Part shown: piece after piece, positions 8,999-13,545 of the stretch
Numbering within the stretch: position 1 is the first letter of the stretch
Layout of the letters: every line of letters begins with the position of its first letter
From: Bacteroidota bacterium
GTDB lineage: Bacteria > Bacteroidota > Rhodothermia > Rhodothermales > UBA10348
Reading direction: 5' to 3'
NCBI GenBank assembly: GCA_029262855.1
Contig: JAJCYP010000041.1
Location: forward strand, 1 to 64,000
DNA: 64,000 nucleotides
The notes under the pieces: model-generated
What the model saw: the letters and a program-made list of their open reading frames with translations, nothing else
Database searches by the model: none
What the model was told of the DNA's origin: nothing
Translations under genes and position numbers: made by a program

Positions 8999-9075
8999 GG
9001 CGCGGTAGCTCAGTTGGTTAGAGCGACGGACTCATAACCCGTAGGTCGGCAGTTCAAATCTGCCTCGCGCCACCA
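8999..9075 (+). tRNA. tRNA-Met (anticodon CAT), CCA encoded
   Basis: A complete 77-nt cloverleaf: acceptor GGCGCGG/TCGCGCC (one G-T pair), D arm GCTC/GAGC with AGTTGGTTA loop, anticodon loop CTCATAA with CAT at 9033-9035, T arm GGCAG-TTCAAAT-CTGCC, and an encoded CCA end. The acceptor has a G1-C72 pair as in elongator tRNA-Met; a CAT-anticodon tRNA-Ile (modified by TilS) is the alternative. The anticodon stem has an A-C mismatch next to the loop, as in other elongator tRNA-Met I recall from Bacteroidota. Confidence 0.92.
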
Positions 9076-9143: not shown

Positions 9144-10184
9144 CTACATGTCCTCCCAGTATTCCTCGGGCATGTCCTGGGCGAGCGCCAGTGCGCCCTC
9201 GGCCCCGGCGTAGAGCGGATCGTCGATGGGACGGATGTTGAAGGATCCGAATTGCTTGAGCTCCTCGGTCAGTCCTTCGGCCAGCCCCTTGATCTGGCTG
9301 CCGCCGCCGGCCAGGAACACGTTCTGCTTCACTTCCTCCTGGAAGTCCGGCTCGTAGCGGGCAATGAGGTCCATGGTCGCCTCGGCGAGTACTGGCACCA
9401 GGCCCTCGCATACGGCCCTCACGTCGGCCGTCACGTCGAGCGCCGTCGAGACACCACCGATGGGCACCTTGATCTTGACCCGCTCACGATGACTGCCCAC
9501 GAATCCGTGTTCTTCCTTGAAGGTCCGGATCATGGTCTCGCTGAACCGTGCCTCCGGATGCTTCTCATTGAGTCTGTTCTTCAGTTGCTGATCCAGATAG
9601 TCTCCGGCTACGGTGATGGTCCGCTGATCCTCCTCGCCGGGCATGGTCCCGTGCATGATGCAGAAGTCAGCCGTCCCCGCCCCGATGTCGATAATCAGAG
9701 CGTTGTTGAGCGTCCCCAATCCGTATGCGACGGCGAAGGGCTCCGAGACCACCATCAGGGAGTCGGCATACTCTTTCACTGCATTGCGGATGGCCAGTTT
9801 GTTGACGCGCAGCGCCTCGGCAGGCACGCCAACGGCCGCATAGATCTCGGCCGCCTTTCCGGGATTCACCTGTTCAATAAGGTGATGGACCAGGGCCCGG
9901 ACAGCATCCTCGTCCTGCTGGGTGCCATCACGAATGACGCCCTGCTCGAGTGGGCGTGTCAGTCTCAACGAGAGCCGATTCTCGAGAGCGTCGGAGCCGA
10001 ACAGCACATCCCGGCCAAGCATCTTCTTGGATACAAAGTCCTTCGGCCAGCCGACGTAGCTCTGGACCCATTCCCGTTTTCCGTTGGATGCCACGATGGC
10101 ACTCCGGGAGGTCCCCAGGTCTATTCCGATGTAGAGTATCCGATCGGCGCTGCCGTTGGACGTCGTTTTTTTCTTTGCAGGCAT
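9144..10184 (-). CDS. MamK-like bacterial actin
   Basis: This 346-residue actin-fold ATPase resembles the magnetosome filament protein MamK more than MreB. Phosphate 1 loop IGIDLGTSRSAIVAS, then VGWPKDFVSKKMLGRDVLFG, PLEQGVIRDG, VSEPFAVAYGL, the phosphate 2 loop IIDIGAGTADFCIM, HGTMPGEEDQ, the adenosine motif VFLAGGGSQIKGL and a C-terminal EEYWEDM each line up with the corresponding MamK segments as I recall them; MreB lacks the xxPKDxxxxKxLGR block. The N-terminus is a short Lys-rich leader. No other mam gene is present. It lies 74 bases downstream of a periplasmic murein amidase on the same strand and may share its transcript. It probably forms cytoplasmic filaments; what they position is unknown. 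An MreB-like shape function is the alternative. Confidence 0.8.
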   Translation of the reverse strand: MPAKKKTTSNGSADRILYIGIDLGTSRSAIVASNGKREWVQSYVGWPKDFVSKKMLGRDVLFGSDALENRLSLRLTRPLEQGVIRDGTQQDEDAVRALVHHLIEQVNPGKAAEIYAAVGVPAEALRVNKLAIRNAVKEYADSLMVVSEPFAVAYGLGTLNNALIIDIGAGTADFCIMHGTMPGEEDQRTITVAGDYLDQQLKNRLNEKHPEARFSETMIRTFKEEHGFVGSHRERVKIKVPIGGVSTALDVTADVRAVCEGLVPVLAEATMDLIARYEPDFQEEVKQNVFLAGGGSQIKGLAEGLTEELKQFGSFNIRPIDDPLYAGAEGALALAQDMPEEYWEDM

Positions 10185-10258
10185 TGTTTCGCTTCTTGGG
10201 GTTGGTTGCCGATGGGCGGCGGTGGGATTCCGAGGGGCGGTGGTTATTGGGTCGGAGT

Positions 10259-11293
10259 CTATTGCCGTCGACTCCGATCGACGAGATAGTTCAGGACACC
10301 CTCCTCCAGGAAGGCGGCCAATTGCTCACGGTGCGCTTCCGTCTGCAGGCGGTCTGCCTGAGCGGCATTGGACAGCACGGATATTTCAGCCAGGATGCTC
10401 GGGGCATCGGAGCCGAGCAGGACCACAAAGGGACCCGCCTTCACGCCCCAGTCCTGGACATTCGGGGCTTCGATGCGCGTATTCGATACCAGACTCCTCT
10501 GAACAGCGGTTGCCAACCGTCTGGACTCCTGGAGTTTGACGGTGCTGCTCAGCCTGCGGATCATGTCATTGAAATCCGCGAGCGTGTAGTCCGAACCCTG
10601 ATTCTCGGCCTCGGCCAGTCGCAGAAGCGTGCGCTCCGTGTTGGCGCCGAAGTAGTAGGTCTCCAGCGCATTCACCGGAGCGTCAGGGAAAGAATTGGCG
10701 TGAATAGAGACGAAAAGGTCTGTCGGTTGGCGATTCGCAAACTCCACGCGCTCACGGAGGGAGACCGTCTCGTCCTCTTCTCGGGTCATCAGGACCGTGT
10801 ATCCGCGTTGCTCCAGCCTTCTTCGAAGACGGCGCGCGACATCCAGTGTGACATCTTTCTCCCAGACCTCCTTGAGTCCAATCGCGCCGGGATCGTCGCC
10901 CCCGTGCCCAGGATCCAGCACGATGGTGCGAACCTGGAGGTCAAAAAGCGCAGCCAGGGGCGTGGACCCCTTCAGCATTTCGCGGAACTGATCGGGATCC
11001 AGTCCCGCATCCGCATCGGGTCCAACGTCCAGAACCGGCAGATTGGCGTCCAGAATGGTCGTGGCTCCAAAGTCCGGAGTTCCCGCATCACCGGGCTCTT
11101 CCCCGAACAGCTGCACACCCACGACCACGAGAAGCAGAATCAGGACGACGCCCCCCGCCCAAAGGGTGGCATATCTCCTCCGCAGGGCCGCTTCGGCAGC
11201 ACCGCCATCCTTGATGCGGCGGTTCTCTTCATAGACCCGCCGCAGCATGGACGCGCGCGCCTTGCGCGATGGCTCAAAACGGTCCGTTTCCAC
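10259..11293 (-). CDS. Membrane-anchored N-acetylmuramoyl-L-alanine amidase (Amidase_3)
   Basis: The enzyme cuts the amide bond between MurNAc and the stem peptide and probably acts in the periplasm in cell division or wall remodelling. The 344-residue protein has a basic cytoplasmic N-terminus (residues 1-45), one transmembrane helix (about 46-66, VVLILLLVVVGVQLF), a linker, and an Amidase_3 domain (about 130-340). Zinc ligands are visible: His in VLDPGHGGDDPG, Glu in LKEVWEKD, His in VSIHANS; the catalytic Glu is in LAEISVLSN. Upstream (11294-11421) is AT-rich DNA that may hold its promoter, and the MamK-like actin gene follows on the same strand. No LysM or AMIN domain is evident. Confidence 0.9.
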   Translation of the reverse strand: METDRFEPSRKARASMLRRVYEENRRIKDGGAAEAALRRRYATLWAGGVVLILLLVVVGVQLFGEEPGDAGTPDFGATTILDANLPVLDVGPDADAGLDPDQFREMLKGSTPLAALFDLQVRTIVLDPGHGGDDPGAIGLKEVWEKDVTLDVARRLRRRLEQRGYTVLMTREEDETVSLRERVEFANRQPTDLFVSIHANSFPDAPVNALETYYFGANTERTLLRLAEAENQGSDYTLADFNDMIRRLSSTVKLQESRRLATAVQRSLVSNTRIEAPNVQDWGVKAGPFVVLLGSDAPSILAEISVLSNAAQADRLQTEAHREQLAAFLEEGVLNYLVDRSRRQ

Positions 11294-11421: not shown

Positions 11422-13545
11422 TCAGGCTTCCGCCAGTGCCTCGGCCTCGGCAACGACCGCATCCTGGACGTGACGCGGCATGGGTTCGTAGCTGGCAAAC
11501 GAGTTCCGATGCATCCCCCTTCCCTGTGTCATGGACCTCAATGAGGTGCTGTACCGGTACAGTTCCGCCTCGGGAGCCGTGGCGATAATCTTCTGGAACG
11601 GCCCCTCCGCCTCCATACCCTGGATGCGGGCACGGCGAGTATTCATGTCGCCCATGACATCGCCTGTGTAGGAATCCGGGACGAGCACTTCAATTTCGTG
11701 GATCGGCTCCAGGATGACCGGCTTTGCGTCGCGGAAGGCATCGCGGAAACACATCCTTGAGGCGGTCTTGAACGCCGCTTCGTTTGAGTCCACCGAGTGC
11801 ATTCCGCCGTCGGTGATCACAATTCGGATATCGCCAACCGGGTAGCCCGCAACCGGACCCTGCTGGAGCGCCTCTGCTACGCCCTTCTGAATCGCGCCAA
11901 AGAACCGCCGCATGTCGATGACTCCACCGACGATGGCATCGATATACTGAATCCGCGACCCCCAGTCAGTGAGGTGCTCATCTACCGAACGAACCTTGAT
12001 GTCATCCGGCGGCTCGAAGTCTCCGTGAAGCGGCTCGACGAGCATGGAGATATCGGCGAATTGTCCGGCCCCACCTGTCTGCTTCTTGTGACGGTACTTG
12101 GACCGAGCGCGGGTCGTCACCGTCTCGCGGTAGGCCACCTTGGGCCGCGAGAACTCGATGCTGACGCCGTACCGATGCTTCAGCCGGAACTGGGCAATCT
12201 GCAAGTGCATCTCGCCCTGCCCGCCGAGGGTCAGCTGGGACAGATGCTGATCGTGTGTGATGGTGAGCGAGGGATCCTCCTCGTGCAACTGGTGGAGTCC
12301 CTGGGCAAGTTTGTCTTCCTCCCCCTCCTTACTGGCCATGACTGCAGTCGTGTACCGCGGGGCTGGAAAGACGATGGGCTGGATGACGGTGCTTGAGCCT
12401 TTCAGATGCAGCGTGTCATTGGTGTGGGTGTTTTTCAGCTTGACCAGCGCGCCGATGTCGCCTGCGACCATTTTGTTTACGGACTCGCGCTCGTGCCCAT
12501 TGATCGAGTAGATCTGCCCGAGTCGCTCGTGCGCCCCGGAGCCGGCATTGATCAGGTCCATGCCGGTCTCCAGCGCTCCCGAGTAGACCCGGAAGAAGGA
12601 ATAATCGCCCACGTGTGGCTCGGCCATGGTCCGGAAGATCAGTGCCGCCGGCTCTCCGTCCGCGCTTGCCGGCAACTCGCCTCCGCCAATCAGCTGGGCT
12701 GCAGGCATCTCGGGCGGCGATGGACAGACGTTGTCGATGAACGACATCAACCGACTGACGCCGATGTTGGCGGTGGCGCTCGTCACGAAGATCGGGAAGA
12801 GCTGCCGATTCAACATCGCAACGTGAAGACCCTGGCGCATCTCGTCCTCGGACAGCTCGCCCTTCTCGAAGTAGAGCTCCATGAGCCCTTCGTCGTTCTC
12901 CGCGATGCTCTCAACCAGGTCGTTGTGTAGCTGCTCGGCTTCCTCCTTGTGAGCGTCGGAGATATCGCCTTCGCTCATCGCCCCCGTGCCTTCGGCGAAG
13001 GAGAGCTGCTTCATACGCAGGACGTCCAAAATGCTGCGGCTACCCGATCCCCCGGGCACCTGTACCACAGTCGCGCTGGATCCAAATCGCTCCTGGATCT
13101 GCCCGATGACGCCGCGGAAATCGGTGTCCGCCTTGTCCAGATGGTTGATCACAAACATGGCCGGCTTCCCAAGCTCCTCGGCAGTCCGCCAGGCGAGCTC
13201 GGTCCCCACCTGCACGCCTTCGCCCGCATTGATCACGAAGATGGCGCAGTCCGCCACGGTCAGGGAGGCTACCACCTCACCCACGAAATCGGGGTAGCCG
13301 GGCGTATCAATGATGTTGACCTTGTAGCCCTTCCACTCAGCGTGCAGAACGGAGGAGAACACCGACATCTGGCGCTCGTGCTCAGAGGCGTGGTAATCGG
13401 AGACGGTTGTTCCATCCTCAATTGACCCCATTCGGGGCAGCGCACCGCTCGTCAACAGCATGGCCTCGGCCAGCATCGTCTTTCCCGAGCCTTGATGCCC
13501 TACCAAGGCTACGTTTCGGATGTGTCCCGCATCATATACCTGCAT
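11422..13545 (-). CDS. Elongation factor G-like GTPase (EF-G2 type)
   Basis: This 707-residue translational GTPase has the five-domain EF-G layout. The G domain shows GHQGSGKT (residues 17-24), DTPGYPDF and NHLDKAD (NxxD in place of the usual NKxD spacing); switch I reads HERQMSVFSS, where canonical EF-G has an ERGITI-like sequence, a hallmark of the EF-G2/EF-G-like group. Later domains carry GGQGEMHLQI and the domain IV/V block PILEPIHEIEVLVPDSYTGD. Thermus EF-G2 binds ribosomes and hydrolyses GTP, but its physiological job is unsettled; the canonical fusA is expected elsewhere. The gene stands alone, with a possible TATCTTTT -7 box at 13593-13600 on the reverse strand. Confidence 0.9.
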   Translation of the reverse strand: MQVYDAGHIRNVALVGHQGSGKTMLAEAMLLTSGALPRMGSIEDGTTVSDYHASEHERQMSVFSSVLHAEWKGYKVNIIDTPGYPDFVGEVVASLTVADCAIFVINAGEGVQVGTELAWRTAEELGKPAMFVINHLDKADTDFRGVIGQIQERFGSSATVVQVPGGSGSRSILDVLRMKQLSFAEGTGAMSEGDISDAHKEEAEQLHNDLVESIAENDEGLMELYFEKGELSEDEMRQGLHVAMLNRQLFPIFVTSATANIGVSRLMSFIDNVCPSPPEMPAAQLIGGGELPASADGEPAALIFRTMAEPHVGDYSFFRVYSGALETGMDLINAGSGAHERLGQIYSINGHERESVNKMVAGDIGALVKLKNTHTNDTLHLKGSSTVIQPIVFPAPRYTTAVMASKEGEEDKLAQGLHQLHEEDPSLTITHDQHLSQLTLGGQGEMHLQIAQFRLKHRYGVSIEFSRPKVAYRETVTTRARSKYRHKKQTGGAGQFADISMLVEPLHGDFEPPDDIKVRSVDEHLTDWGSRIQYIDAIVGGVIDMRRFFGAIQKGVAEALQQGPVAGYPVGDIRIVITDGGMHSVDSNEAAFKTASRMCFRDAFRDAKPVILEPIHEIEVLVPDSYTGDVMGDMNTRRARIQGMEAEGPFQKIIATAPEAELYRYSTSLRSMTQGRGMHRNSFASYEPMPRHVQDAVVAEAEALAEA

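Follow-up and report, generated by a model that had tools for sequence, protein, structure and literature searches.

The window analysed here (the whole 64,000-nucleotide stretch) carries a widespread and conserved module of two genes, a cell wall amidase and an actin, that annotation files under MamK. As read from its sequences, the module most likely works through an actin filament: a short docking helix would attach to it a membrane-anchored, autoinhibited amidase, which the filament would recruit, position and perhaps switch on.

The amidase gene comes first and the actin gene second on the minus strand of the window (Table 1). An earlier note on this DNA, made from the sequence, had described the pair; its coordinates, the 74-base gap and all of the sequence blocks that it quoted were correct, with both open reading frames exactly as given. 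Scans of the locus for promoters and terminators gave results near the shuffle background.

Table 1. Features of the amidase-actin locus (positions in the window)
Feature	Position	Strand	Remarks
tRNA-Met gene closing the locus	8999-9075	opposite to the amidase/actin pair	
MamK-superfamily actin, amidase-linked clade (P0001)	9144..10184	-	346 aa, ATG start
Intergenic gap, 74 bases	10185..10258	-	between amidase and actin genes
Membrane-anchored N-acetylmuramoyl-L-alanine amidase, Amidase_3 (P0002)	10259..11293	-	344 aa, GTG start
Periplasmic Amidase_3 domain, residues 119-337	10283..10939	-	Pfam match, residue alignment
Single transmembrane helix of the amidase, about residues 42-62	11108..11170	-	sequence, hydropathy
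Conserved cytoplasmic amidase motif, residues 13-27 RASMLRRVYEENRRI, proposed filament-docking peptide	11213..11257	-	
EF-G-like gene, upstream of the amidase	11422-13545	same as the pair	

We compared the actin with family models and solved structures. It scores 410.3 bits against the NCBIfam MamK model, above the cut-off of 400, and stays under the cut-offs of the BeeR model (227 bits; cut-off 530) and the MreB model (77.5 bits; cut-off 293). Its best match among solved structures is MamK of Magnetospirillum magneticum AMB-1 (294 bits), with 175 bits for BeeR and 53 bits for Thermotoga MreB. The protein is thus closer to MamK than to MreB, as the earlier note had held, and a separate, ordinary MreB is encoded elsewhere in the same genome. 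An AlphaFold2 model built on the actin's own relatives (pLDDT 88) has as its PDB match of highest TM-score the MamK filament subunit 5ljv (TM 0.90, 41% identity). The nucleotide-binding residues D22, G24, T25, E148, D166, G168, G170, T171 and S296 are invariant or nearly so among 32 diverse members, and the modelled actin fold together with these residues is compatible with ATP-dependent double-helical filaments. In the model, about 15 residues precede the actin fold, forming a disordered N-terminus with no predicted membrane-binding helix. Glu283 is acidic and stands where the MamK mutant A278D, which fails to polymerise, has its substitution. We weighed it as a sign against polymerisation and discarded it, since magnetosome MamK and MreB often have an acidic residue there as well.

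The relation to MamK was resolved in two trees, one of 126 rows and a more careful one of 87 rows. All 94 amidase-linked actins form one clade in the former (support 100), and in the latter the clade, which includes two Gammaproteobacterial actins without an amidase neighbour (L180 and L183), is supported at 100/99. Its sister group in the 87-row tree (95/88) comprises MamKs from Nitrospirota and part of the Desulfobacterota, which lie in magnetosome clusters with MamM (386 bits, above its cut-off) and MamB-, MamQ-, MamP- and MamA-like genes; the AMB-1 MamK groups with Gammaproteobacterial MamKs that adjoin MamE-, MamN- and MamO-like genes. MreB and BeeR fall outside the amidase-linked clade, and the actin, for which the earlier note had proposed a phylogeny as a check, lies neither inside MreB nor inside another known actin clade. 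Because its clade is separate from the magnetosome-cluster MamKs, the window protein is not a magnetosome MamK, and we assign it on sequence to a MamK-superfamily sister clade of magnetosome MamK rather than to MamK proper. Support for the root within the superfamily is weak (73/81 and 83/81), so that either MamK or the amidase-linked actin may have arisen first.

Five residues, W39, W46, F50, A135 and F174, set the amidase-linked clade apart from MamK. W46 and F50 are 100% conserved across the clade; in other MamK-superfamily proteins position 46 is mostly Y/F and position 50 mostly A/I/V/L. The block WPKDF, which had been taken as diagnostic of MamK, marks the amidase-linked clade and not MamK. 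No other mam gene had been seen near the actin in the earlier note, and a search for MamM through the whole genome (99% complete) gave no match. In short, the window actin has in common with MamK (PDB 5LJV/5LJW/5JYG; NCBIfam NF040964) the superfamily, the fold and the nucleotide-site residues, and differs from it in its clade, in having a membrane amidase as partner and in the lack of magnetosome genes (MamM searched genome-wide).

The genetic association of amidase and actin is firm. Public genomes yielded 80 related loci, in all of which the actin gene is immediately preceded by the amidase gene in the same orientation. These loci come from Rhodothermales, Nitrospirota, Desulfobulbales, Gamma- and Betaproteobacteria, Aminicenantes, Rokubacteria and one Alphaproteobacterium (Defluviicoccus), with organism names as in the records; most are metagenome-assembled genomes (MAGs), and the cultivated Roseithermus sacchariphilus is included. 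The pair spans about six bacterial phyla, and the two genes mostly overlap or sit a few bases apart in relatives, which suggests translational coupling. Since the flanking genes change between groups (EF-G/TsaB/AccD, ThyA/DHFR, ScpA, citrate synthase), the pair is the conserved unit.

Co-occurrence was then read in both directions. Within the order, the actin is carried by 17 of the 41 genomes sampled, the remainder having MreB only or nothing recognisable, and the amidase is directly upstream in all 22 actin loci examined. Full-length matches to the amidase subfamily (at least 206 bits) are confined to the actin carriers of the order; the actin-less genomes hold at most an amidase fragment, in G005 (contig end, 70% complete genome). 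Among 198 Nitrospirota genomes the amidase adjoins the actin in all 14 carriers, and the reverse test with an amidase profile gave 14 full-length matches (at least 423 bits) in exactly these 14 genomes, the next-best match (285 bits) being without the N-terminal part. In the Nitrospirota and Desulfobacterota surveys the division was sharp: every actin with 52% identity or more to the window protein has the amidase, and those at or below 48-49% identity are never paired with it. The neighbour, whose conservation in Rhodothermota had been put forward as a check, is thus kept far beyond that group (80/80 public loci, 14/14 in Nitrospirota). Actin and amidase distances are also correlated (r 0.93; 0.84 between phyla; permutation maximum 0.11), which shared inheritance explains as well as interaction does.

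The sole exceptions found are in Gammaproteobacteria, where four of six clade members have the amidase neighbour. The other two, L180 and L183, have a different upstream gene, and a subfamily amidase was not found elsewhere in their genomes. They represent either secondary loss or a MAG artefact or incompleteness; if real, the actin can exist alone. The genes upstream of these actins (L180:4481-5512, L183:7786-8832) resemble an M48-type protease with TPR repeats and a GGDEF/EAL protein. On the Defluviicoccus SSA4 chromosome (L111 / L167), the amidase frame is interrupted beside an intact actin, reflecting either a sequencing error or a decaying partner. Note also that one contig (G019:C91) holds two identical whole-locus copies in opposite orientation about 27 kb apart (L033 and L042); with MAG contamination of 6%, this duplicate is probably an assembly artefact.

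The amidase itself matches Pfam Amidase_3 (PF01520) at 159 bits (gathering threshold 27), and its AlphaFold2 model (pLDDT 82) has E. coli AmiA as best PDB match (TM 0.82 by target length). The aligned amidases all have the same zinc-binding and catalytic residues (H130, E145, H198, E303), and E230 in the regulatory insert is likewise invariant (34/34). E230 aligns with the zinc-latch Glu167 of AmiA (chain residue 134, with an offset of 33 fixed by the position of His65), a residue of the blocking helix that ligates the zinc and holds AmiA off (PMC10268282). Because this glutamate of the division amidases is retained, the enzyme is probably off by default. Arginines stand on the N-side of the transmembrane helix and acidic residues after it, from which the N-terminus is predicted to be cytoplasmic (positive-inside rule), and residues 10-63 form a continuous helix in the model. 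A cytoplasmic tail followed by one predicted transmembrane helix agrees with the inner-membrane anchoring suggested in the earlier note. The catalytic domain and the autoinhibitory zinc-latch glutamate are shared with E. coli AmiA, AmiB and AmiC (PMC10268282). The E. coli enzymes, however, are soluble, periplasmic and under EnvC/NlpD, whereas the window amidase is predicted to span the membrane and has a cytoplasmic motif and an actin as operon partner. Control of amidase activity from the cytoplasm, as proposed here, is known from the FtsEX-EnvC system, where it works via ATP (PMC10268282).

Ahead of the membrane helix, the amidases carry the motif [KR]xxIL(R/K/Q)GVYE(D/E)NL(R/K)I. It is present in all 74 complete amidases, compared with 0.64 matches expected in total after shuffling of the same N-terminal regions, and its mean pairwise identity (0.51) is that of the catalytic domain (0.52), the flanks, membrane helix included, being at 0.15-0.20. 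Over ten whole genomes, a profile of the motif gave a strong match to the actin-linked amidase only, with no convincing second motif-bearing protein; the motif is missing from the generic amidases of the same genomes. Weak matches at E 0.015 and above were rejected as chance, save one, a second copy inside the Roseithermus sacchariphilus amidase (L048:10458-11633 / L062:4816-5991), which has the motif twice in tandem (EILRAVYEENRRI ... QQVLRGVYETNRAM) and offers a natural test of valency. A motif that is conserved, predicted to be cytoplasmic and confined to the actin-linked amidase is most simply explained as a putative binding site for the actin; alternatively, it could engage a different partner in the cytoplasm or act in targeting.

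At 17 of the Nitrospirota loci from public genomes, the actin is followed by a gene for a protein with a receiver domain (17/17), a membrane helix and a SPOR domain (16/17, the remaining gene being cut by a contig end). This SPOR neighbour was found in Nitrospirota only, and among third genes it alone recurs with a link to the wall. ThyA and DHFR (both in one Rhodothermales family) and, in other groups, ScpA, citrate synthase and a ThiE-like gene, named from sequence and not all by family scan, were considered as module parts and rejected as ordinary neighbours. SPOR domains bind mainly at the septum. Their ligand is amidase-processed peptidoglycan, as a passage of PMC7822825 states, and together with the SPOR protein as third gene in many Nitrospirota this supports a septal or polar role of the module, with the septum or new pole as the likely site of action.

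We propose that amidase and actin act as a conserved two-component module in which the actin, ATP-binding and of MamK-like fold, would assemble into a cytoplasmic filament. The amidase would be anchored in the inner membrane, its N-terminus facing the cytoplasm, where its short helix would bind the filament. This docking of the motif would tether the filament to the membrane and gather or orient the periplasmic amidase domains, so that the cutting of peptidoglycan would be confined to the sites, and possibly also to the times, at which a filament exists. That the motif docks the amidase to the filament, which would then position or activate wall hydrolysis, is in our view probable; the wording of the earlier note, that a filament "positions or times wall hydrolysis", is one that we too infer from sequence. 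A bolder version, tentative and one that may well not hold in full, is that the filament, via the transmembrane docking helix, would be the switch of an otherwise autoinhibited amidase, an inside-out control parallel to FtsEX-EnvC in about six phyla, with MamK sharing ancestry with the wall-linked actin.

The relation could also run the other way, the amidase serving the filament: its N-terminal helix would fasten to the membrane a filament that governs shape or positions organelles (cf. RodZ-MreB), and its enzyme domain would be a tether to the wall and not the output. An anchor supplied by the amidase would suit an actin with a disordered N-terminus and no predicted membrane-binding helix, a motif conserved as much as the enzyme, and the organisation of organelles by MamK relatives (PMC12748827). 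Yet a mere tether would not need the zinc ligands, the catalytic glutamate and the autoinhibitory glutamate, all invariant across phyla, and the SPOR protein as third gene at many loci also speaks for wall cutting as the output, so we regard this arrangement as unlikely. Joint transcription for dosage or timing in wall remodelling without any contact, the motif binding some other cytoplasmic factor such as a divisome protein, is quite improbable: a conserved operon alone is no proof of contact, and two actin carriers are without the amidase, but amidase and actin strictly co-occur, and the motif is unique to the actin-linked amidase among the amidases of the same genomes.

As for a true MamK, either a relict of a magnetosome system (or that of another organelle) or still working in one, and beside the amidase by chance, the passing of the NCBIfam cut-off and the nearest solved structure would both fit. 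It can hardly be the case given the separate 100/99 clade, the grouping elsewhere of MamKs that have MamM/B/Q/P/A or MamE/N/O neighbours, the lack of a MamM match in the genome and an amidase neighbour kept at nearly 100 distinct loci; for the amidase-linked clade as a whole, this interpretation is already refuted.

An actin filament tied to the cell wall via a membrane protein recalls MreB-RodZ. That system is known for the control of wall synthesis, not cutting, and the window genome has its own MreB besides the amidase-linked actin. BeeR of Verrucomicrobiota (PDB 8R2N) is a MamK relative outside magnetotaxis whose function is not known (PMC11929497). It has a disordered N-terminal extension of 30-50 aa, whereas the window actin has only its short leader before the fold. 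BeeR matches the window actin at 175 bits only and lies outside the amidase-linked clade. Bbp (big bacteria protein), a MamK-related actin of non-magnetotactic bacteria, likewise of unknown function, belongs to a cluster of three genes, one of which codes for a Kelch-domain protein, no amidase being mentioned (PMC10580974). The window locus has no Kelch gene, a comparison made with Bbp by its description. A Gammaproteobacterial clade (L181/L182/L184/L185) examined as possible Bbp had no Kelch domain in the neighbours checked. In the open-access literature we found no description of an amidase-actin operon or module.

Other actin loci were met in Desulfobacterota. A further MamK-superfamily clade (332 aa) without amidase (L160:9245-12588, L161:6907-10211, L162, L166) has its actin directly after a 117-aa gene and a coiled-coil protein of 651-663 aa with a transmembrane segment, and is possibly another undescribed actin system. 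At three loci (L155:8708-11370, L158:8381-11231, L159:8236-11045), a protein of 160-189 aa lies between two MamK-type actins; it has a membrane helix in its N-terminal part, a coiled coil, and the conserved stretch GSHYLPxxVVRN in its C-terminal part.

With the amidase as neighbour, the "MamK family actin-like protein" entries of many non-magnetotactic genomes gain a partner and a testable role, and the short peptide motif can be quickly tested for actin binding. If that role is true, this would be, to our knowledge, the first case of an actin devoted to a hydrolase of the wall and not to its synthesis, and it would provide a concrete alternative to EnvC/NlpD for the restraint of amidases in bacteria outside the model species. 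The finding also bears on the origin of the magnetosome filament, a deep-branching form of MamK being the nearest neighbour of the wall-linked clade in the tree.
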